In this document: positions 1-18,867 of the stretch, one piece after another
How the letters are laid out: each line of letters starts with the position of its first letter
Numbering within the stretch: position 1 is the stretch's first letter
Assembly: GCA_035512495.1 (NCBI GenBank)
Contig: DATKDW010000013.1
Span: forward strand, 1-47,875
Direction: 5' to 3'
From: Acidimicrobiales bacterium
Lineage (GTDB): Bacteria > Actinomycetota > Acidimicrobiia > Acidimicrobiales > CADCSY01
DNA: 47,875 nucleotides
The notes under the pieces: generated by a model
Databases searched by the model: none
What the model was told of the DNA's origin: nothing
Seen by the model: the letters and a program-made list of their open reading frames with translations, nothing else
Translations under genes and position numbers: made by a program

Positions 1-2201
1 CGGAGGCGGAGGCTGTTGGCCACCACGCTGACCGACGAGAACGCCATGGCGGCGCCGGCGAGGACCGGGCTCAGGAAGCCCAGGGCGGCGAGGGGGATCG
101 CCGCGGTGTTGTAGCCGAACGCCCAGAACAGGTTCTGGATGATCGTGCGGTGCGTGCGTCGGGCCAGGGTGATGGCCGTGGCGATGCCCTCGAGGTCGCC
201 GCGCATCAAGGTGAGGTCGCTCGACTCGATGGCCACGTCGGTGCCGGTGCCGATGGCGATGCCGAGGTCGGCCTGCACCAGGGCGGGGGCATCGTTGACG
301 CCGTCGCCGACCATGGCCACCACCGTCCCCTCGGCCTGGAGGCGGGCGACCTCCGACTGCTTGTCCTCGGGGAGCACCTCGGCCAGCACCCGGTCGATCC
401 CGACAGCGGCAGCGATGGCCTCAGCGGTGCGGGCGTTGTCGCCGGTGATCATGGCAACCGTCAGGCCGAGGCCGTGCAGGCGGGCCACGGCGTCGGCGGC
501 GCCGTCCTTGAGGGTGTCGGCCACCGCCACCATCCCCCGCACCTCACCGTCCCAGCCGGCGAAGACCGCCGTGCGCCCCTGGCCCTCGAGGGCGACCGCG
601 ACGTCGTCCAGCGTGCCGGGGAGCACGAGGCCGTGGTCGGCCATGAGGCTGCGTCGGCCCACCCACGTGGTCGACCCCTCGACCTCGGCGCGGATGCCGT
701 GGCCGGCGAGCGCCTCCACGCCGGTGGCCGGCGGCAGGTCGTGGCCGGCGGCCCGGGCCCCGGCCACCACGGCCTGGCCGATGGGGTGCTCGCTGTCGGC
801 CTCGACCGCGCCGACCCGGCGCAACAGGTCGTCGCCGTCGACGCCCGGGGCGGGGACCACGTCGGTCAGGGACATCTCGCCGCGAGTGAGGGTGCCGGTC
901 TTGTCGAGCAGCACGGTGTCGATCCCGCGGGTGCGCTCGAGGACCTCGACCGACTTGATGAGGATCCCGAGCTGGGCCCCCCTGCCGGTGCCGACCATGA
1001 TCGCCATGGGGGTGGCGAGGCCGAGGGCGCACGGGCAGGCGATGATCAGGACGGCGACGGCGGCGAGGACCCCGGCGGTCACGTCGCCGCCAACCACGCC
1101 CCAACCGAGGAACGTGACCAGGGCGATGACCATCACCGCCGGGACGAAGACCGACGAGACCCGGTCGGCCAGGCGCTGGGCGCCCGACTTGCCGGTCTGG
1201 GCCTCCTCGACCATCCGCACGATCTGGGCCAGGGCGGTCTCGGCGCCCACCGCGGTGGCGGAGACGGTGAGGACGCCCGAGGTGTTGACGGTGGCACCGG
1301 TGACCCGGTCGCCCGCCGCCTTCTCCACCGGCAGCGACTCGCCGGTCAGCATCGACTCGTCGACCGCCGACGCCCCCTCGACCACCGTGGCGTCCACCGG
1401 GACCTTCTCCCCCGGGCGCACGCGCACCACATCGCCGACCACGACCTGGTCGACGGGCACCATGACCTCGGTCCCGTCACGGATCACCCGGGCCTCCTTG
1501 GCACCGAGCTCGAGCAGCGAGCGGATGGCCCGCCCGGCCCGGCCTTTGGCCCGCGCCTCGAGGTACCGGCCGAGCACGATGAAGGCGATGATGAGGACGG
1601 CGGCCTCGTAGTAGAGCTCGTGGCCGTCGATGGCCAGCTGGTAGGTGCTGTAGCCGTAGGCCGACGACGTCCCCATGGCGATGAGGGTGTCCATGTTGGC
1701 GGTGAGGTGGCGGGCCCGGCGGGCGGCCTCGGCGAGGAACGGCAGCCCGATCCAGAGCTGCACCGGTGTGGCCACCAGGAACATGGCCCAGCGCAGCGTG
1801 GTGCTGTGCATGGCGGTGTCGTGGTACGCCATCGTCGAGAGCATGAACAGCGCCGCCGGGGCCACCGCCACGAGGCGCCAGCGCCACATCCGCTGGGCAG
1901 CCTCCTCGGCGTCGTCGGCCGCCTGCGCCCGCCCCGCGGCGTCGCCGCCGGCGCGCCCGGCCGTCCCCTCGGTGGCCGGGACCTCCAGGCGATAGCCGAT
2001 CTTGTCCACCGCCGCCTGGAGGGCAGCCACGTCGACGGTGCCGTCGGTGGCGATGTGGGCCTTGCCCGTCCCGTAGTTGACCGCCGCCTCCACAACCCCG
2101 GGCTGGCGGCCGAGTACCCGCTGCACCCGGGCCGCGCACGACCCGCACGTCATCCCCTCCACGGGGAGGTCGAGGGTGCGCTCCTCGGTCGGGACGGTCA
2201 C
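1..2201 (-). CDS. copA: Copper-exporting P1B-type ATPase CopA (C-terminal end cut by window edge)
   Basis: Pumps Cu(I) out across the cytoplasmic membrane using ATP. The reading frame shows one N-terminal heavy-metal domain with GMTCGSC (Cys19 and Cys22), membrane helices, the TGES actuator motif, the ion-binding CPC motif in [11 protein letters not shown], the phosphorylated Asp in DKTGTLT, the SEHP nucleotide-binding motif and the GDGVNDAP hinge, then the last helices running off the window edge. About 733 residues are present, so only a short tail should be missing. The GTG start at 2201 overlaps the csoR stop by four bases (GTGA), so the two are translationally coupled. Regulation by CsoR from the 2489-2505 operator is inferred. 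Cu(I) is preferred over Zn or Cd because of CPC and the CsoR neighbour. Confidence 0.93.
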
Positions 2202-11772: not shown

Positions 11773-13161
11773 TCAGCGGGGGGACCCGCCGGCGGGTGCC
11801 GGTGGGTCGAGGCGGTCGAGGCGGTCGATGGCGGCGGGGAGGAGGTCGACCAGGTCGCCGGCGACCAACCCGCGGCGCCAGCCTAGGGTCCCGGCTCGAC
11901 CGTGCAGGTGGGCCGCGGCGGCAGCCGCCCGCAACGGGTCCAGGCCGGACGCGAGCAGGGCGGCGATGGCGCCCGCGAGCACGTCGCCGGTGCCGGCGGT
12001 GGCCAGGCGGGCGTCGCCCGTCGTCGTCACCAGCACCCGACCGTCGGGGGCGGCGACGACGGTGGTGGAACCCTTCAACAGGACCGTGCACCCAGCCGCT
12101 GCCGCCAGGGAGCGCGCCTCGCCCAGCCTGTCGGCCGAGGGGGCGGCGCCGGTGAGGCGGACCAGCTCCCCGTCGTGGGGGGTGAGCACGGTCCGGGCGG
12201 TGACGTAGCGGGCGACGTCGGTCCCGAGGGCGGTGAGGGCGTCGCCGTCGGCGACGACCGGCACCGTCGAGCCCGCCAGCAGGCGGCGCACCTCGGTTGC
12301 CGTGGCGTCGGCCGTGCCGAGCCCGGGCCCGGCCACGAGGGCGCCGAAGCGGTCCTGGTCGGCCAGCGCCTCGGCGGCCCACCCCTCGGCCGGGAGCTCC
12401 GTGCCCACCGCCTCGGTGGGGATCCCCTCCCCCGGCAGGCCGCCCGGCGACGACACCCGCACGTAGCCGGCCCCGGTCCGCTGGGCGCCGCCGGCGGCCA
12501 GGGCGGCGGCGCCCGCCATGCCGGGACTGCCGGCCACCACCCACACCGCGCTGCGCCACTTGTGCGACGACGGCGGCCGCTCGGGCAGCCAGGCCGCCAC
12601 GTCGGCGTCGGTCACCAGGTGGGCGGTGGCCCCCGAGACGTCGAGGCCGATGTCGGCCACCGTCACCTCTCCGGCCAGCTCGGCCCCCCGGTCGAGCAGC
12701 AGACCCGGCTTCAGGGCGGCGAAGGTCACAGTCCGCCACGCCTGCAGGGGTTCGGTGCCCTCCCCCACCACCCCCGTGAGGCCGTCGACCCCGCTCGGGA
12801 TGTCGACGGCCAGGACCGGTGCGCCGTCGGCATCGGGAGCCCGCCAGGCCCCCCGGAAGCCGGTGCCGTAGGCGGCGTCGACCACGAGGTCGCAGGCGGG
12901 CAGCACCGCGGGGAGGTCGCCGGCCTCCAGCACCTCCACCCGCACCCCCCGCCGACTGAGCCCGTCGGCCGCCACCCGTCCGTCGGCCCCGTTGTTGCCC
13001 GGCCCGGCGATGACCACCACCCGCCGTCCGTACGCACCGCCCAGGAGGTCGAGCGCCGCCCGCGCCACCGCCGCCCCCGCCCGGCCGACCAGCACCTCGA
13101 GCGGTTCCGGCGCAGCAGCGTCCACGGAGCCCATCTCGGCGGGCGTGAGGATCGGGATCAT
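11773..13161 (-). CDS. nnr: Bifunctional NAD(P)H-hydrate epimerase / ADP-dependent dehydratase
   Basis: Repairs hydrated NADH and NADPH. The 462-residue protein has both parts of the fusion: the N-terminal epimerase (YjeF_N type) with GPGNNGADGRVAADGL, VVDAAYGTGF and DIPSGVDG, then the ribokinase-like dehydratase from about residue 200 with PGLLLD, AGPGLGTADA, LTPHDGELVRL, LLKGSTTVV and the ATAGTGDVLAG catalytic loop. The ATG at 13161 precedes a short MIPILTPAEMGSVD start. It lies between acpS and the CBS gene, as expected for actinobacteria. Confidence 0.96.
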   Translation of the reverse strand: MIPILTPAEMGSVDAAAPEPLEVLVGRAGAAVARAALDLLGGAYGRRVVVIAGPGNNGADGRVAADGLSRRGVRVEVLEAGDLPAVLPACDLVVDAAYGTGFRGAWRAPDADGAPVLAVDIPSGVDGLTGVVGEGTEPLQAWRTVTFAALKPGLLLDRGAELAGEVTVADIGLDVSGATAHLVTDADVAAWLPERPPSSHKWRSAVWVVAGSPGMAGAAALAAGGAQRTGAGYVRVSSPGGLPGEGIPTEAVGTELPAEGWAAEALADQDRFGALVAGPGLGTADATATEVRRLLAGSTVPVVADGDALTALGTDVARYVTARTVLTPHDGELVRLTGAAPSADRLGEARSLAAAAGCTVLLKGSTTVVAAPDGRVLVTTTGDARLATAGTGDVLAGAIAALLASGLDPLRAAAAAAHLHGRAGTLGWRRGLVAGDLVDLLPAAIDRLDRLDPPAPAGGSPR

Positions 13162-13225
13162 CGTGTCTGTGCGGTGGTTGTGGTCGCCGGAGCGACCAGG
13201 GGCACCGCCCAGACGCACCCGGGGA

Positions 13226-13591
13226 TCACAGGGCGACCACGGTGGCGGTGGCGACGGCGGTGGTGTGCGAGAGGGTCACCAGCCAGGCGCTCACCCCGCG
13301 CTCCTCGGCGAGGGCGGCGGCCGGGCCCGACAGGCGCACGCCGGGCTGCCCGCTCTCGGCCCGCACCACCTCCACGTCTCGCAGGGCGAAGGCGCCGAGG
13401 CCCACCCCGAGCGCCTTCATGACCGCCTCCTTGGCGGCGAAGCGCGCTGCCAGTCGCTCGGCGGGGTCGGGGGCGGTCGCCGCGTAGGCCCGCTCCTCGT
13501 CGCTGAAGAGCCGGTCCGCCAGGGTGGGGGTGCGGTCGAGGGCGAGGCGGAAGCGCTCGACGTCGACCAGGTCGGTGCCGATCCCCTTCAC
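13226..13591 (-). CDS. acpS: Holo-[acyl-carrier-protein] synthase
   Basis: Transfers the 4'-phosphopantetheine arm of CoA to acyl carrier protein. The 121-residue protein has the two Mg-binding motifs of the family: GTDLVDVERF (Asp7) near the start and RFAAKEAVMKALG (Glu55) in the middle. The GTG start at 13591 has a strong GAGGAGG site six bases upstream. It follows the GlmS-like gene by ten bases and precedes nnr. Confidence 0.96.
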   Translation of the reverse strand: MKGIGTDLVDVERFRLALDRTPTLADRLFSDEERAYAATAPDPAERLAARFAAKEAVMKALGVGLGAFALRDVEVVRAESGQPGVRLSGPAAALAEERGVSAWLVTLSHTTAVATATVVAL

Positions 13592-13601
13592 GATGGCCTC
13601 C

Positions 13602-16600
13602 TCAGGTCCTGTTGCGACGCCAGCGGCCGGCCAGGACGTGGACCGGCTCCACCAGCAGGTCGATGATGTCGATCTCGCCCAGCAGCGAGTCGTCGAAGGT
13701 CGGCTCGGTCTCGGTGACGGCGTCGACCAGCGCCGAGTAGCGGCCCCGGTAGCCGGTGAGCACCTGGCGGGCGACGTCGGGCTCGAGGCGGTCGTGGAAG
13801 CGGACGTGCAGCAGCGTGATCCCGGTGACCTCGTTGTCCTTCACCTCCGGTGCCATGACGATCGTGCGGCCGTCGCGGGCCCCGCGGGCAACGGTGACCT
13901 GGCGCTCGCTCGCCACCCGGTGCTTGGTACCGCGGAGCTGGTCCTCGACGTCGGCCCGCGAGGCGAGGGACGCCGCGCTGCCACCCTTGTCGATCACGCT
14001 GATCGTGGCTCGGCGCTGGGCCACGTCGCCGGCGACCCGGTAGCGGGTGTACCCGGTGACCTCGGCCACCGCCGGGTCGACCGCCGCCAGCGTGCGCACC
14101 GAGCGGTAGCCCACCCGGTCGCGGGGGACGCCGACGCCGAGCAGCTCGCGCACGAGGGGGACGTCGAGGAAGGTGTCCTCGGCACGCGAGATGCCCACGG
14201 TGACCGTCTTGGCCTGGTGCTTGATGGCGTCGATGGGCCGGGTCAGCTCCTCGACGCCGCGGGTGAGGCCGGCCACCAGCTCCTCGACCAGCACGGCGGG
14301 CGAGCTGACGAGACCGTGCTCGAGCTCGTAGGCGTCGAGGGGCACCAGGCCGGTCGCGACGCGCAGCAAGGAGGTCACGCGCACCGCGGTGCTGGCTTCG
14401 AGGTGACCGTCATAGGCGCCCTCGCGCAGCCCGGCGAAGAACCGCCCGGCCGGATCGACCAGGGAGGGGGCGAGTCGCTCGAGGGGGTGGTCGCCCAGCC
14501 CGCCGCCGGCGAGCGCCTCCTCCACCGCCGCCCGTGCCTCTCGCAGCGGCAGGGCCTGGGCGTCGATGGCCAGGGCCGCCTCGTAGCCGAAGAGGTGGCC
14601 CACCATCGCCGACAGCACGAACGACAGCGCCGGGTGCACCGACGGGACCTCGATGACCTGCAGGGCGGCGGAGAACACACCTTCGCCCTCGGTGGCGATC
14701 ACGACCGGCGCCGCCTTGTGGGCCCGGTAGATCGCCACCTCCTTGGCCACGTCGTCGGCGTTGGCCCCCCGGAGGCCGGCGGCGCACACCAGGATGAACG
14801 GCTCGGCCGAGAGGTCGATGTGCTTCTTGTCCTCGGTGGCATCGCAGGAGATCGACTTGTAGCAGAGCTCGCTGAGCTTGATCCTCACCTCCTCGGCGGC
14901 GATGCGGTCGAGGCCGTTGCCCACGATGGCCCAGTAGCGGCGCGACGGCGTGTAGCGCTGGGCCGCCTCGGCGATCTCCGGCCGCAGCGCCAGCGTGGCC
15001 TCCATGGCGTCGGGCAGGCCGCGCAGGGCGTCGAGGAGGCTGGCGTCCCGGCGTCGGTCGCCGAGGCCGGCCGCGCCGGCGATGCCGACGGCGAGGAGCA
15101 CGCCGGCCGCGATCTGGGCATAGAACGCCTTGGTCGACGGGACGGCCATCTCCACGTCGCGGCCGTCGGAGGTGTAGAGGACGCCGTCGGCCCGCTCCAC
15201 CAGGTCGCTGTTGCGCCGGTTGACGATGGCCAGCACGGCCGCGCCGCGGGCGCGCACGAGGTCGACGGTCCGGTTGGTGTCGGTGGTGGTCCCCGACTGG
15301 CTGATCGCGACCACGAGCGTGTCGGCCATGTCGTCGCGCAGGGCGAAGCCCGAGAGCTCGGTGGCAGGCATGGCCACGACCCGCAGGTCGGCACCGTCGA
15401 GCATCCCGGCCAGGACGGCGGCCATGCCCTGGCCGGCCACCGCAGCGGTCCCCTGCCCGGTGACGACGATCCGGCGGATGCCACCGGCCGCCAGGCGGTC
15501 CCTGATCTGCGTGGGGAGGACGTCGTCGCCGAGAGCGAGGGTGGCCGTGCCCGAGTCGTCGGTGATGCGGCCCCGCAGGGTCTTGCGGATCGACCTCGGT
15601 GCCTCGCCGATCTCCTTCAGCAGGAAGTGCGGGGCGCCGCCGCGGTCGATGTCGCGGGTGGTGATGCCGGCGGTGTGGACGTCGTCGTCGGCGAGCGGCA
15701 GCGTCGTGCCGTCGTAGGCGAGGCGTCGGATGCCGTCGAGGTCGCCGGCGAGGCTGCCGTCGAGCACGAGGATCTGACCGCGGCTCCCGTCGACTCCGCT
15801 CGGCGTCTCGCCGTCCATGCGGACGTACCGCGAGGTCTCCTCCACCAGGCCGTACGGCTCGCTCGCCACCACGTAGGCGTCCTCGGCCAGGCCGACGTAG
15901 AGGGCCTGGCCGCTGCCCCGCAGGGCCAGGTGGAGGGTGCCCGGCGCCTCGGCGGCACTGACGCCGATGGCGACCGACCCGTCGAACGAGGCGACGGTGT
16001 GGCGCACCGCCTCGTCGATGCCGTCGCCGCCCTGGCGGGCCCGGGCCACGAGGGCGGGGATCACTTTGGCATCGGTGGTGACCTCCTCGGAGATCGCCAG
16101 GCCCTCGCGCTGGCGCAGCTCGACGTGGTTGTCGACGTCACCGTTGAGCGCGGCGGTGACGTAGCTGGCGGCACCGGCGCCGGCTCCGCCCTCCTCCTCG
16201 GAGTTCAGCGGGTGGGCGTTGGCCTCGGAGATGATCCCGACGCTGGCCCACCGGGTGTGGCCGAGGAGGGTCAGTCGGGCGTCGTCGCCGGCGAGGGCCC
16301 GGCGGAGGAGCTCGTCATCGCGGATCTGGGCTCGGAGGGCGGCGGTGTTGTCGCCGAGCTCACCGATCTCGGCAGCCGCCTTGTACACGATGCTCAGGTG
16401 GCCGAGCGGCGTGCGCACCGCTGTTGAGCGGAAGAGCGGATCGTCGCGCTCGGTGAGGCGCGCCTTGACCTCGCCGTCCTCGAGGTCGAGGCCGTGGCCG
16501 TCGACGAGGACGTGGATCCCGGCAGAGTCGCGCCCGCGCACCTCGAGGCGGTCGATCGCCGAGAGGGCGAGCTGCATCGAGGTGTACCCCTCGATCGCCG

Positions 16601-17042
16601 CCGGCCCGGCACCGGGGCCGGCGAGGTCGGCCACCGCCGCGGCGGTGCGGAGCCGGTCGTGGCGAAGCGCCCACGCCGCGTCCTTGGCGCGCAGCAGGCC
16701 GGCGTTGACGTGCTCGAGGCGCTGGCCCTCGATGGCGTGGTCACCGGCGTCGAGGGTGACGTCGAGCTCGGCGACCGCCCGGTCGACCTGGGCCGCCAGC
16801 TCGGCGATCCGCTCGGCCCCACTGGCGTCACCGAGCAGCGCCACCACGCCCGCCGCGCCCCGCATGCTGCAGTCGACCGCCTCGAGCTCGTCGGCGGCGG
16901 CAGCCAGGGTGGTGCCGGGGTCGTCGGCGGTGAGGGCGGATTCGAGGTGCTCGAGGGCGGTGCCCAGGGTCTCGCAGAGCGACGGCAGGCCCGGGGGCTG
17001 GCGGCGGCTGGGGCGCCGGATCACCGCAACGATTCCGCACAT
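13602..17042 (-). CDS. Giant GlmS-like protein: split glutaminase domain, two SIS domains, novel C-terminal domain
   Basis: The protein has 1146 residues; GlmS is normally about 610. MCGIVAV gives the class II glutaminase nucleophile Cys2, but the next glutaminase block (AIDRLEVRGRDSAGI) comes only at residues 162-176, after an Ala/Leu-rich insertion of about 140 residues. HTRWA (262-266), Asn300-Gly301 and Asp324 complete the ammonia-producing site. The first SIS domain has LKEIGEAPRS (475-484), GQGTA (529-533), SQSGTTTDT (581-589) and PSTKAF (635-640). The second has IKLSELCY, placing Lys722, Glu725 and His741 where GlmS has its isomerase Lys, Glu and His. The usual SVTVE-type tail is absent, replaced from about residue 880 by a domain I do not recognise (HQAKTVTVG, TGYTRYRV). 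Its place after glmM suggests that it makes glucosamine-6-phosphate; that is inference. Confidence 0.88.
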   Translation of the reverse strand: MCGIVAVIRRPSRRQPPGLPSLCETLGTALEHLESALTADDPGTTLAAAADELEAVDCSMRGAAGVVALLGDASGAERIAELAAQVDRAVAELDVTLDAGDHAIEGQRLEHVNAGLLRAKDAAWALRHDRLRTAAAVADLAGPGAGPAAIEGYTSMQLALSAIDRLEVRGRDSAGIHVLVDGHGLDLEDGEVKARLTERDDPLFRSTAVRTPLGHLSIVYKAAAEIGELGDNTAALRAQIRDDELLRRALAGDDARLTLLGHTRWASVGIISEANAHPLNSEEEGGAGAGAASYVTAALNGDVDNHVELRQREGLAISEEVTTDAKVIPALVARARQGGDGIDEAVRHTVASFDGSVAIGVSAAEAPGTLHLALRGSGQALYVGLAEDAYVVASEPYGLVEETSRYVRMDGETPSGVDGSRGQILVLDGSLAGDLDGIRRLAYDGTTLPLADDDVHTAGITTRDIDRGGAPHFLLKEIGEAPRSIRKTLRGRITDDSGTATLALGDDVLPTQIRDRLAAGGIRRIVVTGQGTAAVAGQGMAAVLAGMLDGADLRVVAMPATELSGFALRDDMADTLVVAISQSGTTTDTNRTVDLVRARGAAVLAIVNRRNSDLVERADGVLYTSDGRDVEMAVPSTKAFYAQIAAGVLLAVGIAGAAGLGDRRRDASLLDALRGLPDAMEATLALRPEIAEAAQRYTPSRRYWAIVGNGLDRIAAEEVRIKLSELCYKSISCDATEDKKHIDLSAEPFILVCAAGLRGANADDVAKEVAIYRAHKAAPVVIATEGEGVFSAALQVIEVPSVHPALSFVLSAMVGHLFGYEAALAIDAQALPLREARAAVEEALAGGGLGDHPLERLAPSLVDPAGRFFAGLREGAYDGHLEASTAVRVTSLLRVATGLVPLDAYELEHGLVSSPAVLVEELVAGLTRGVEELTRPIDAIKHQAKTVTVGISRAEDTFLDVPLVRELLGVGVPRDRVGYRSVRTLAAVDPAVAEVTGYTRYRVAGDVAQRRATISVIDKGGSAASLASRADVEDQLRGTKHRVASERQVTVARGARDGRTIVMAPEVKDNEVTGITLLHVRFHDRLEPDVARQVLTGYRGRYSALVDAVTETEPTFDDSLLGEIDIIDLLVEPVHVLAGRWRRNRT

Positions 17043-17102
17043 TCGCCAGCTCCACTCTCGGTCTCGCAGGGGCCGTCCGAGTGTACGGGGGCCACGTGGC
17101 GG

Positions 17103-18455
17103 TCAGTGCTCGCAGGCCGCCTCCACGGCGGTGGCCAGGCGTCGGGCGCCGTCCTCGGCGGCGGCCGCGGTGGGTGCCTCCACCATCACCCGCACCACCG
17201 GCTCGGTGCCGCTCGGGCGAATGAGCACCCGGCCGGGCTCGCCGAGCGCGGCCTCCACCGCTGCGATCTCACCGGCCACCGCCTCGGCCACGTCGGGCCG
17301 CCGGCGCGCGACGGCCACGTTCACGAGCACCTGGGGCAGGCGGGTCATGGCCCCGGCGGCGAGGTCGGCGAGCGTGCGCCCCGACCGCCGGACCAGGTCG
17401 AGGATCTGGAGGCCGGTGAGGGTCCCGTCGCCGGTGGTGGCGAGGTCCCGGAAGATGACGTGGCCCGACTGCTCGCCGCCGAGCGACCAGCCGCCCTCCT
17501 CGAGCGCCTCGAGCACGTGGCGGTCGCCCACCGCCGTCTCCACCACCTCGATGCCGGCGCGGGCCATGGCGAGGCGGAACCCCAGGTTGGTCATGACGGT
17601 GACGACGACCGTGCGACCGGCGAGCCGATCGCGCGCCGCGAGGTCGACGGCGCACATGGCGATCAGGTGGTCGCCGTCGACGAGGGCGCCGGTGTGGTCG
17701 ACGGCGACCACGCGGTCGGCGTCTCCATCGAAGGCGAGGCCGAGGTCGGCGCCGGCCGCCACCACGGCGGCCTGGAGCGCCTCGGGGTGGTTCGAGCCAC
17801 ACCCCTCGTTGATGTTGACGCCGTCGGGCTCGGCGGCGATCACCTCGACGCGCGCGCCGAGTTGGCCCACGGCCCGGGGCGCCACCGACGACGCCGCCCC
17901 GTTGGCGCAGTCGAGCACCACGTGGAGGCCGGCGAGGTCGCGCCCCTCGAGGCTGGCCACCAGCGACTCGAGGTAGCGGGCGGCCGCCGCCTCGCCCCCG
18001 TCGGTGACGGCGCCCACCTCCGCTCCCCGCCGCTCGCCGGTCGGGCCGGTCGGGCCGCCCTGGTCGAGGAAGCGGTCGAGCGCGGCCTCGAGCGCGGTCT
18101 GGGTGGCATCGTCGACCTTGCGGCCCCCGGGGACGAAGAGCTTCACGCCGTTGTCGGCGAAGGGGTTGTGCGACGCCGAGATCATCGCGCCCGCCACGCC
18201 CTCGGTGGCGGCCATCCAGGCCACGCCGGGGGTGGGCAGGACCCCGAGGCGCTCAACGTCGCAGCCCTCGGCGGTGAGCCCCGCCACCAGCGCGGCCTCG
18301 AGAAGCGGCCCCGAGCGGCGGGTGTCGCGCGCCACGAGGACGCGTCCTCCGCCCAGCACCGTGGCAGTGGCGCGGCCGAGCGCCAGGACGAGCTCAGGGG
18401 TGAGCTCGACGTTGGCGACGCCACGGATGCCGTCGGTGCCGAAGCGCAGCGTCAT
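17103..18455 (-). CDS. glmM: Phosphoglucosamine mutase
   Basis: Converts glucosamine-6-phosphate to glucosamine-1-phosphate for UDP-GlcNAc and peptidoglycan. The 450-residue protein starts MTLRFGTDGIRGVAN and has the phosphoserine loop ISASHNPFADNG, the Mg loop DGDADR and the phosphate-binding RPSGTEPVVRVMVEA. The ATG at 18455 matches the family start; the longer frame upstream enters rpsI. It sits 22 bases after rpsI and 60 bases before the giant GlmS-like gene, so the next-step and previous-step enzymes are adjacent. Confidence 0.97.
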   Translation of the reverse strand: MTLRFGTDGIRGVANVELTPELVLALGRATATVLGGGRVLVARDTRRSGPLLEAALVAGLTAEGCDVERLGVLPTPGVAWMAATEGVAGAMISASHNPFADNGVKLFVPGGRKVDDATQTALEAALDRFLDQGGPTGPTGERRGAEVGAVTDGGEAAAARYLESLVASLEGRDLAGLHVVLDCANGAASSVAPRAVGQLGARVEVIAAEPDGVNINEGCGSNHPEALQAAVVAAGADLGLAFDGDADRVVAVDHTGALVDGDHLIAMCAVDLAARDRLAGRTVVVTVMTNLGFRLAMARAGIEVVETAVGDRHVLEALEEGGWSLGGEQSGHVIFRDLATTGDGTLTGLQILDLVRRSGRTLADLAAGAMTRLPQVLVNVAVARRRPDVAEAVAGEIAAVEAALGEPGRVLIRPSGTEPVVRVMVEAPTAAAAEDGARRLATAVEAACEH

Positions 18456-18477
18456 GCCGGTGGCACCGGGGAGCGGA

Positions 18478-18867
18478 CTAGCGCTTGGAGTACTGCGGTG
18501 CCTTGCGGGCCTTCTTGAGCCCGTACTTCTTGGACTCCTTCTCACGGGAGTCGCGCGTGAGGAAGCCGGCTCGCTTGAGGGTGGTCCGCAGCTCGGGGTC
18601 GAGCTCGATCAGCGCTCGGGCGATGCCGAGGCGCAGGGCGCCTGCCTGGCCGGAGATGCCGCCACCGATGATCTTGCAGTCGACGTTGTACATCTCGTCG
18701 GTGGTGGTGAGGCGCAGCGGCTCGGTGATGATCATCTGGTGCGTCTCGGACGGGAAGTACTCCGCCAGCGACCGCTTGTTCACGGTGATGGTGCCCTCGC
18801 CGCCGTGGAGGCGGACTCGGGCGATGGCCTGCTTGCGGCGGCCGGTGGTCTGGGTGAGCGGCTTCAA
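18478..18867 (-). CDS. rpsI: Small-subunit ribosomal protein uS9
   Basis: Full-length at 129 residues, ending in the canonical [12 protein letters not shown] tail whose C-terminal residues contact the P-site t[15 protein letters not shown] near the start and [19 protein letters not shown] in the middle are the family motifs. It follows rplM by seven bases, the usual two-gene operon, and is itself followed by glmM. Confidence 0.98.

Follow-up and report, generated by a model that had tools for sequence, protein, structure and literature searches.

Can an open reading frame (ORF) of 1146 residues, found directly after glmM where an ordinary glmS is expected, still supply its host with glucosamine 6-phosphate (GlcN6P)? 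The ORF lies in a 47,875-nucleotide stretch of DNA from an Acidimicrobiales bacterium (assembly GCA_035512495.1, contig DATKDW010000013.1), and this entire stretch is called the window here. An earlier note on the window suggested either a lineage-specific, differently regulated GlmS or a related enzyme producing a different amino sugar. Our analysis makes it very probable that the protein, termed the long form below, is a GlmS with an internal catalytic tail and acts as the sole GlcN6P synthase of this actinobacterium, whose closest relatives are Acidimicrobiia. As judged from alignments and a predicted structure, the glutaminase domain, the double-SIS isomerase domain and the catalytic C-terminal tail (C-tail) are all retained.

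Replacement of the canonical enzyme

The class sample consists of 149 genomes, each at least 90% complete, in which a GlmS was counted as canonical if it scored above the model cut-off. Canonical GlmS is present in 80 genomes and the long form alone in 60 (about 40%), whereas none has both and nine have neither or carry fragments only. Mutual exclusion is complete across the 140 classifiable genomes, and no taxonomic family, as labelled in this sample, mixes the two kinds. The window's own order includes long-form genomes as well as canonical ones. GlmS of either kind is split or missing in five genomes of the sample (G473, G493, G501, G425 and G488), which probably reflects assembly gaps.

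No canonical GlmS above the cut-off is encoded in the genome that contains the window (2.8 Mb, 96% complete), and the best GlmS match there is the window gene itself (E 7.9e-62). A second, canonical glmS elsewhere in this genome, which the earlier note had named among the grounds for abandoning the GlmS assignment, was looked for and rejected, as the profile search yielded only two other matches to TIGR01135, both of them partial (E 2e-25 over 1-230 and E 3.5e-9 over 64-166). The genome also encodes GlmM, MurA and a GlmU-like protein. Thus, the long form is almost certainly the only glucosamine-6-phosphate synthase of the organism.

The GlmU-like gene (G000:C93:31244-32302) occupies a 372-codon frame, matches model positions 2-344 of 452, and scores 363.2 bits against a cut-off of 366.85. 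It is possibly truncated or devoid of part of the acetyltransferase domain.

The gene order glmM-glmS-acpS-nnr is common to loci with long and short forms (short examples are L097, L098 and L101), and so the long gene resides at the position that canonical glmS occupies elsewhere. Gene order, sole copy, mutual exclusion and the active-site conservation described below together lend strong support to the proposal of a lineage-specific GlmS.

Outside the class, the long form is present in a few families. In one of these (f51, represented by G103, G124, G167, G253 and G264) it is the sole GlmS. The two f51 loci examined (L096 in G103 and L100 in G167) have the long gene located away from glmM, and the f51 proteins nest within the clade of the window gene with a support of 0.99. 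It is likely that f51 acquired its long GlmS, an essential enzyme, by horizontal transfer. The only sampled genome with both forms is G042 (G042:C155:14039-15844 and G042:C313:20894-24319), which has 5% contamination and is possibly a mixed bin. A search of plasmids for the long form returned no record that covers 80% of the query.

A conserved family outside the curated models

When 84,980 species genomes were scanned, 587 loci encoding relatives were recovered, of which the best 80 were kept. All but two of these 80 cover the query essentially from end to end, with identities mostly of 55-65%, and the two exceptions (L052 and L078) are cut off at contig ends and miss the N-terminus. Full-length alignment was obtained for 75 representative sequences, the window protein included (1114-1183 residues). 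Because there are 587 relative loci, the best 80 of which span essentially the full length, a chance ORF is excluded; the 1146-residue ORF is real and part of a conserved family.

Most relatives carry record names of the Acidimicrobiia type. Four records are oddly named, namely L038 and L043 (Bifidobacterium breve metagenome-assembled genomes), L055 (Acidobacteria ATN2) and L052 (Thermoanaerobacterales ZC4RG19). These names look wrong because the neighbouring glmM, acpS or nnr genes strongly match those of the window, and the records are probably mislabelled Acidimicrobiia genomes.

Above the Pfam cut-offs, the 1146-residue protein matches only GATase_6 and SIS. NCBIfam GlmS models match the long form at E 1e-64 to 1e-71, far under their curated cut-offs. 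Its 218.4 bits compare with 418.05 required for TIGR01135, which counts against calling the protein a GlmS, and its 241.5 bits with 381 for PRK00331. Because of these scores, the long form would not be filed as a TIGR01135 member. Neither Pfam nor NCBIfam contains a curated family that covers this architecture.

These low scores, together with an identity of about 30% to canonical GlmS and a long branch in the tree, are what might be expected if the protein were an aminotransferase that uses some other sugar phosphate to make a different amino sugar. The fixed or nearly fixed replacement of Thr76 by Ser, His77 by Val and Glu351 by Thr could be read in the same way. However, the long form takes the place of canonical GlmS in 60 genomes without overlap and at the same locus beside glmM, and the side chains checked at the phosphate and sugar contacts fall within the canonical range. 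With such a one-for-one replacement at the glmS locus, the amino-sugar alternative raised in the earlier note is unsupported, and we regard it as very improbable.

Active sites and glutaminase insertions

Conservation was assessed by aligning 80 long forms against 35 canonical sequences, with E. coli numbering used for the counts. Residues invariant in all 80 long forms include C1, R26, G27, D29, S30, H71, R73, W74, N83, H86, N98, G99 and D123 on the glutaminase side, as well as S347, Q348, S349, T352, V399, S401, K485, E488, H504, A602 and K603 on the isomerase side and in the tail. V605 is kept in 79 of 80, and T606 and V607 are kept too. The glutaminase set that characterizes GlmS (N-terminal Cys, R73, W74, N98, G99 and D123) is therefore complete in every long form, and so is the isomerase set (S347-Q348-S349-T352 with K485, E488 and H504), for which the fold also superposes.

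The catalytic residues listed earlier from the window sequence (Cys2, Arg264, Trp265, Asn300, Gly301, Asp324, Lys722, Glu725 and His741) are each found in 80/80 sequences. The motifs SQSGTT and GQGTA had likewise been read correctly, but the Ala in the latter, taken as an oddity of the CGTS loop, is shared by 11 of the 35 canonical proteins. Other changes are shared by all or nearly all long forms: Tyr25 to Val (79/80), Tyr28 to Arg (80/80), Thr76 to Ser, His77 to Val or Ile, Cys300 to Gln, and Glu351 to Thr.

The glutaminase domain is split as first described: Cys2 is separated from the RGRDSAG block by about 143 residues, and a second insertion of about 48 residues precedes HTRWA. The first insertion is predicted to form helices at residues 19-36, 42-60, 62-71, 73-98, 106-141 and 147-166, and its conservation is low (46% mean column identity). 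Weak similarity (P 0.06) was seen between this insertion and columns 686-781, a helical stretch, of the profile of the large glutamate dehydrogenase (L-GDH). Alongside the fold match of the C-terminal domain to L-GDH described below, this is a curious coincidence, not evidence.

A probable internal catalytic tail

The C-tail of canonical GlmS is a free C-terminus that shuts the sugar site and forms part of the wall of the ammonia channel. In the long form, about 193 residues follow residue 953, and a free C-terminus is consequently absent. The earlier note concluded that the normal tail had been replaced, which is wrong: the tail is displaced to residues 935-950 (RPIDAIKHQAKTVTVG), which correspond to the canonical DxPRNLAK[ST]VTVE and contain an invariant HQAKTVTVG at 942-950. 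In a local-pair alignment, 35 of 35 canonical tails are placed there. K945 (Lys603 in E. coli) and T948 (Thr606) are present in 80/80 long forms and A944 is also invariant, so that the residues expected of a catalytic GlmS tail are in place. Additions on this side of the protein amount to about 105 residues ahead of the tail and about 196 behind it.

A predicted model of the protein (overall predicted local distance difference test score, pLDDT, 88.8) agrees with this placement. Residues 2-951 superpose on E. coli GlmS 1-608 (Z 41.5, 5.1 A, 592 residues), and residues 465-951 superpose on the isomerase domain 243-608 (Z 39.6). A profile of the 16-residue tail also has its best site within residues 828-1146 at the tail motif.

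Three results speak against the internal tail. Segment 937-956 has a pLDDT below 50 even though its residues are among the most conserved, and because of this the tail placement in the model is suggestive only. The tail-profile score was reached by 8 of 3000 shuffles and is only moderately rare. Finally, a global profile-profile alignment (hhalign) puts the canonical tail at 829-842, on the sequence PLREAR at 832-837. The motif at 942-950 would then be something other than the catalytic tail, whose equivalent would be PLREAR or would have been lost in favor of a different lid. However, PLREAR is located inside a continuous predicted helix (807-845), whereas all 35 canonical tails align to AKTVTV with A944 and K945 invariant, and the superposition reaches residue 951 opposite E. 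coli 608. We therefore consider the PLREAR or lost-tail explanation improbable and retain the assignment of the tail to residues 935-950.

In GFAT-1, the C-loop contributes the catalytic residues Lys676 and Thr679 and is kept in place by Tyr32, Arg33, Tyr35 and Trp96 (PMC7000685). The C-tail has also been described as the principal mobile part between the domains (PMC8041777). The equivalents of Tyr32 and Tyr35 are the Val (79/80) and Arg (80/80) noted above for Tyr25 and Tyr28, and thus the alignment is consistent with a tail contact surface that has been rebuilt in the long form.

The C-terminal domain

The domain that follows the tail (residues 955-1146) is predicted with a pLDDT of 95.6 when folded alone. 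Its mean column identity is 62%, with many invariant Gly, Arg, Asp, Lys and Glu residues. Pfam gave no match for this domain in the window protein, its matches in other members did not rise above chance level, and no match was found among PDB sequences. A search for standalone homologues in 296 genomes of the phylum found the domain only within long GlmS proteins, except for one partial match (E 6e-5).

The model of the domain weakly resembles sensor folds of the PAS/GAF type. Its modelled central antiparallel sheet is like that of PAS, GAF and Cache domains, with numerous matches at Z 6 to 7.5 that extend over 80-100 residues, although the domain has no sequence match in Pfam or PDB and Z values in this range may do no more than reflect a common arrangement. 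The best and widest structural match is to the N-terminal segment of the large glutamate dehydrogenase L-GDH180 of Mycobacterium smegmatis (PDB 7JSR, residues 175-361; Z 9.4, 4.7 A, 163 residues). This is weak support because 7JSR is a 6.27 A crystal structure in which the N-terminal segment was modelled ab initio. Like the long form, L-GDH180 is a large actinobacterial enzyme of nitrogen metabolism, but it has another catalytic core, and its sequence shows no similarity to the domain in a profile-profile comparison. Its ACT-like and PAS-type modules have been proposed as metabolic sensors by the authors of the structure (PMC8175468).

Sequence kinship with L-GDH180 was considered and rejected, since hhalign against 20 L-GDH sequences of the same class gave E 0.54 over 23 columns and thus no profile-profile support. 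The likeness is, as far as the model can indicate, a fold resemblance only. The weakness of these matches counts against a sensory assignment: Foldseek gave its best PAS/GAF hit at E 2.6e-3, without sequence support, and in the structural comparison (VIA) no match apart from 7JSR exceeded Z 7.5.

Comparison with known enzymes

Long and canonical GlmS (TIGR01135; E. coli, PDB 1JXA and 2J6H) share a class II glutaminase with an N-terminal Cys, a double-SIS isomerase, the full active-site set, the C-tail AK[ST]VTV, and the gene position after glmM. They differ in length (about 1,110-1,185 versus about 610 residues), in the three large insertions and the C-terminal extension of the long form, in the position of its tail, which is internal rather than terminal, and in the changes at Tyr25, Tyr28, Thr76, His77 and the terminal Glu608. 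SIS-domain GlcN6P deaminases and isomerases of the NagB-II and FrlB/FraB types have a similar isomerase fold but lack a glutaminase domain, whereas the glutaminase site of the long form is complete.

Eukaryotic GFAT-1 (PDB 6R4E and others) shares the core fold (Z 41.7 over 606 residues) and the catalytic residues, but it ends in a free C-tail, and the insertions of the long form are elsewhere. Given that human GFAT-1 structures top the Foldseek ranking, the long form might be regulated as GFAT is, by UDP-N-acetylglucosamine (UDP-GlcNAc) bound at the isomerase domain. The contacts named for this ligand in GFAT-1 are Thr447, Thr458, Gly461 and His463 (PMC7000685). In the long forms, Thr447 and Gly461 are both replaced by Val (80/80 each), His463 is Tyr or Phe in 78/80, and Thr458 is mostly Ala or Ser, which makes control at this site highly unlikely. 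UDP-GlcNAc feedback could still act elsewhere, for instance at the new domain.

Proposed mechanism and regulation

If the long form follows known GlmS and GFAT chemistry, glutamine would be hydrolysed at Cys2, ammonia would pass Trp265 and the C-tail, and fructose 6-phosphate would be converted to GlcN6P by means of Lys722, Glu725, His741 and Lys945. Sugar binding would come first, followed by ordering of the tail and then by glutamine hydrolysis and ammonia transfer, as in the known enzymes (PMC7000685).

The tail would sit between the helical domain (828-934) and the PAS/GAF-like domain (955-1146), anchored at both ends. Because it is held in this way, the two domains could restrain or release it, and by pulling on the tail or letting it go they might couple metabolite sensing, oligomeric state, or both to the synthesis of cell-wall precursors. 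Activity could be adjusted by a ligand bound to the C-terminal domain. The modelled architecture leads us to suggest, at somewhat less than even odds, that the added domains sense a metabolite and/or set the oligomeric state and regulate the enzyme through the tail. More tentatively, internalizing the tail that gates the ammonia channel and tethering it to a sensory domain may provide allosteric control, at the protein level, of the first amino-sugar step. Different regulation, as originally proposed, is plausible only.

The added domains might instead be structural only, serving oligomer assembly or stability without metabolite sensing. Acquired domains need not be regulatory, and the first insertion is a helical bundle whose low conservation is typical of structural elements. 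However, conservation of the C-terminal domain is high, its modelled fold is like that of sensors, and the loops touching the tail are altered in concert. A purely structural role is a genuine but lesser possibility.

Locus organization

The features of the locus are given in Table 1. The ORF, its upstream GGAG and its neighbours glmM and acpS bear out the description of a giant ORF at the syntenic glmS position. The start codon of the long gene is 60 bp from glmM, and about 10 bp separate the gene from acpS. No glmS ribozyme or other Rfam RNA was found in the window at the gathering score. At the window edge, a 490-codon ORF (139-1611, plus strand) has no NCBIfam match and is possibly a spurious frame in GC-rich DNA.

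Table 1. Coordinates of the long glmS gene, its predicted parts and its neighbours in the window
Feature	Coordinates	Strand	Residues	Remarks
Long-form GlmS (glutamine-fructose-6-phosphate aminotransferase type)	13602..17042	-	1-1146	1146 aa, ATG start
Nucleophile Cys2 and first glutaminase strand	17004..17042	-	1-13	
Insertion 1	16569..17003	-	14-158	Helical bundle, variable length (131-179 aa)
R-loop block	16491..16568	-	159-184	EVRGRDSAG (canonical EYRGYDSAG)
Insertion 2	16272..16490	-	185-257	About 48 aa over canonical; has conserved KAAAEIGELGDN
Remaining glutaminase domain	15813..16271	-	258-410	Q-loop HTRWASVG, Asn300-Gly301, Asp324
Linker and double-SIS isomerase	14562..15812	-	411-827	Ser581, Gln582, Ser583, Thr586, Lys722, Glu725, His741
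Helical domain before C-tail	14241..14561	-	828-934	
Internalised C-tail	14184..14240	-	935-953	RPIDAIKHQAKTVTVGISR; invariant, predicted flexible
C-terminal alpha/beta domain	13605..14180	-	955-1146	PAS/GAF-like fold, known only from the long-GlmS family
GGAG, likely ribosome-binding site	17050..17053	-		Upstream of ATG, by sequence inspection
glmM, phosphoglucosamine mutase	17103..18545	-		Upstream neighbour, next pathway step; TIGR01455, 501.8 bits
acpS, holo-ACP synthase	13226..13591	-		Downstream neighbour; NCBIfam
nnr-type NAD(P)H-hydrate dehydratase/epimerase	11773..13218	-		Downstream neighbour; NCBIfam

Significance

In the open-access literature, with subscription papers outside the scope of the search, we found no paper on long GlmS or on GlmS in Acidimicrobiia. 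What would be new is GlmS chemistry in a previously uncurated architecture, and internal tethering of the tail was found described for no GlmS or GFAT.

GlmS catalyses the entry step of peptidoglycan amino-sugar synthesis and is a drug target. Because the long form scores under the standard GlmS model, metabolic reconstructions may call the organisms that carry it glmS-less. If the tail is indeed tethered, the family would serve as a natural experiment for understanding how sugar binding and ammonia transfer are gated by the C-tail. The best known controls of GlmS in other bacteria act on mRNA, whereas here control would be built into the bacterial enzyme itself, in a design that many families of one actinobacterial class would use in place of the canonical enzyme.

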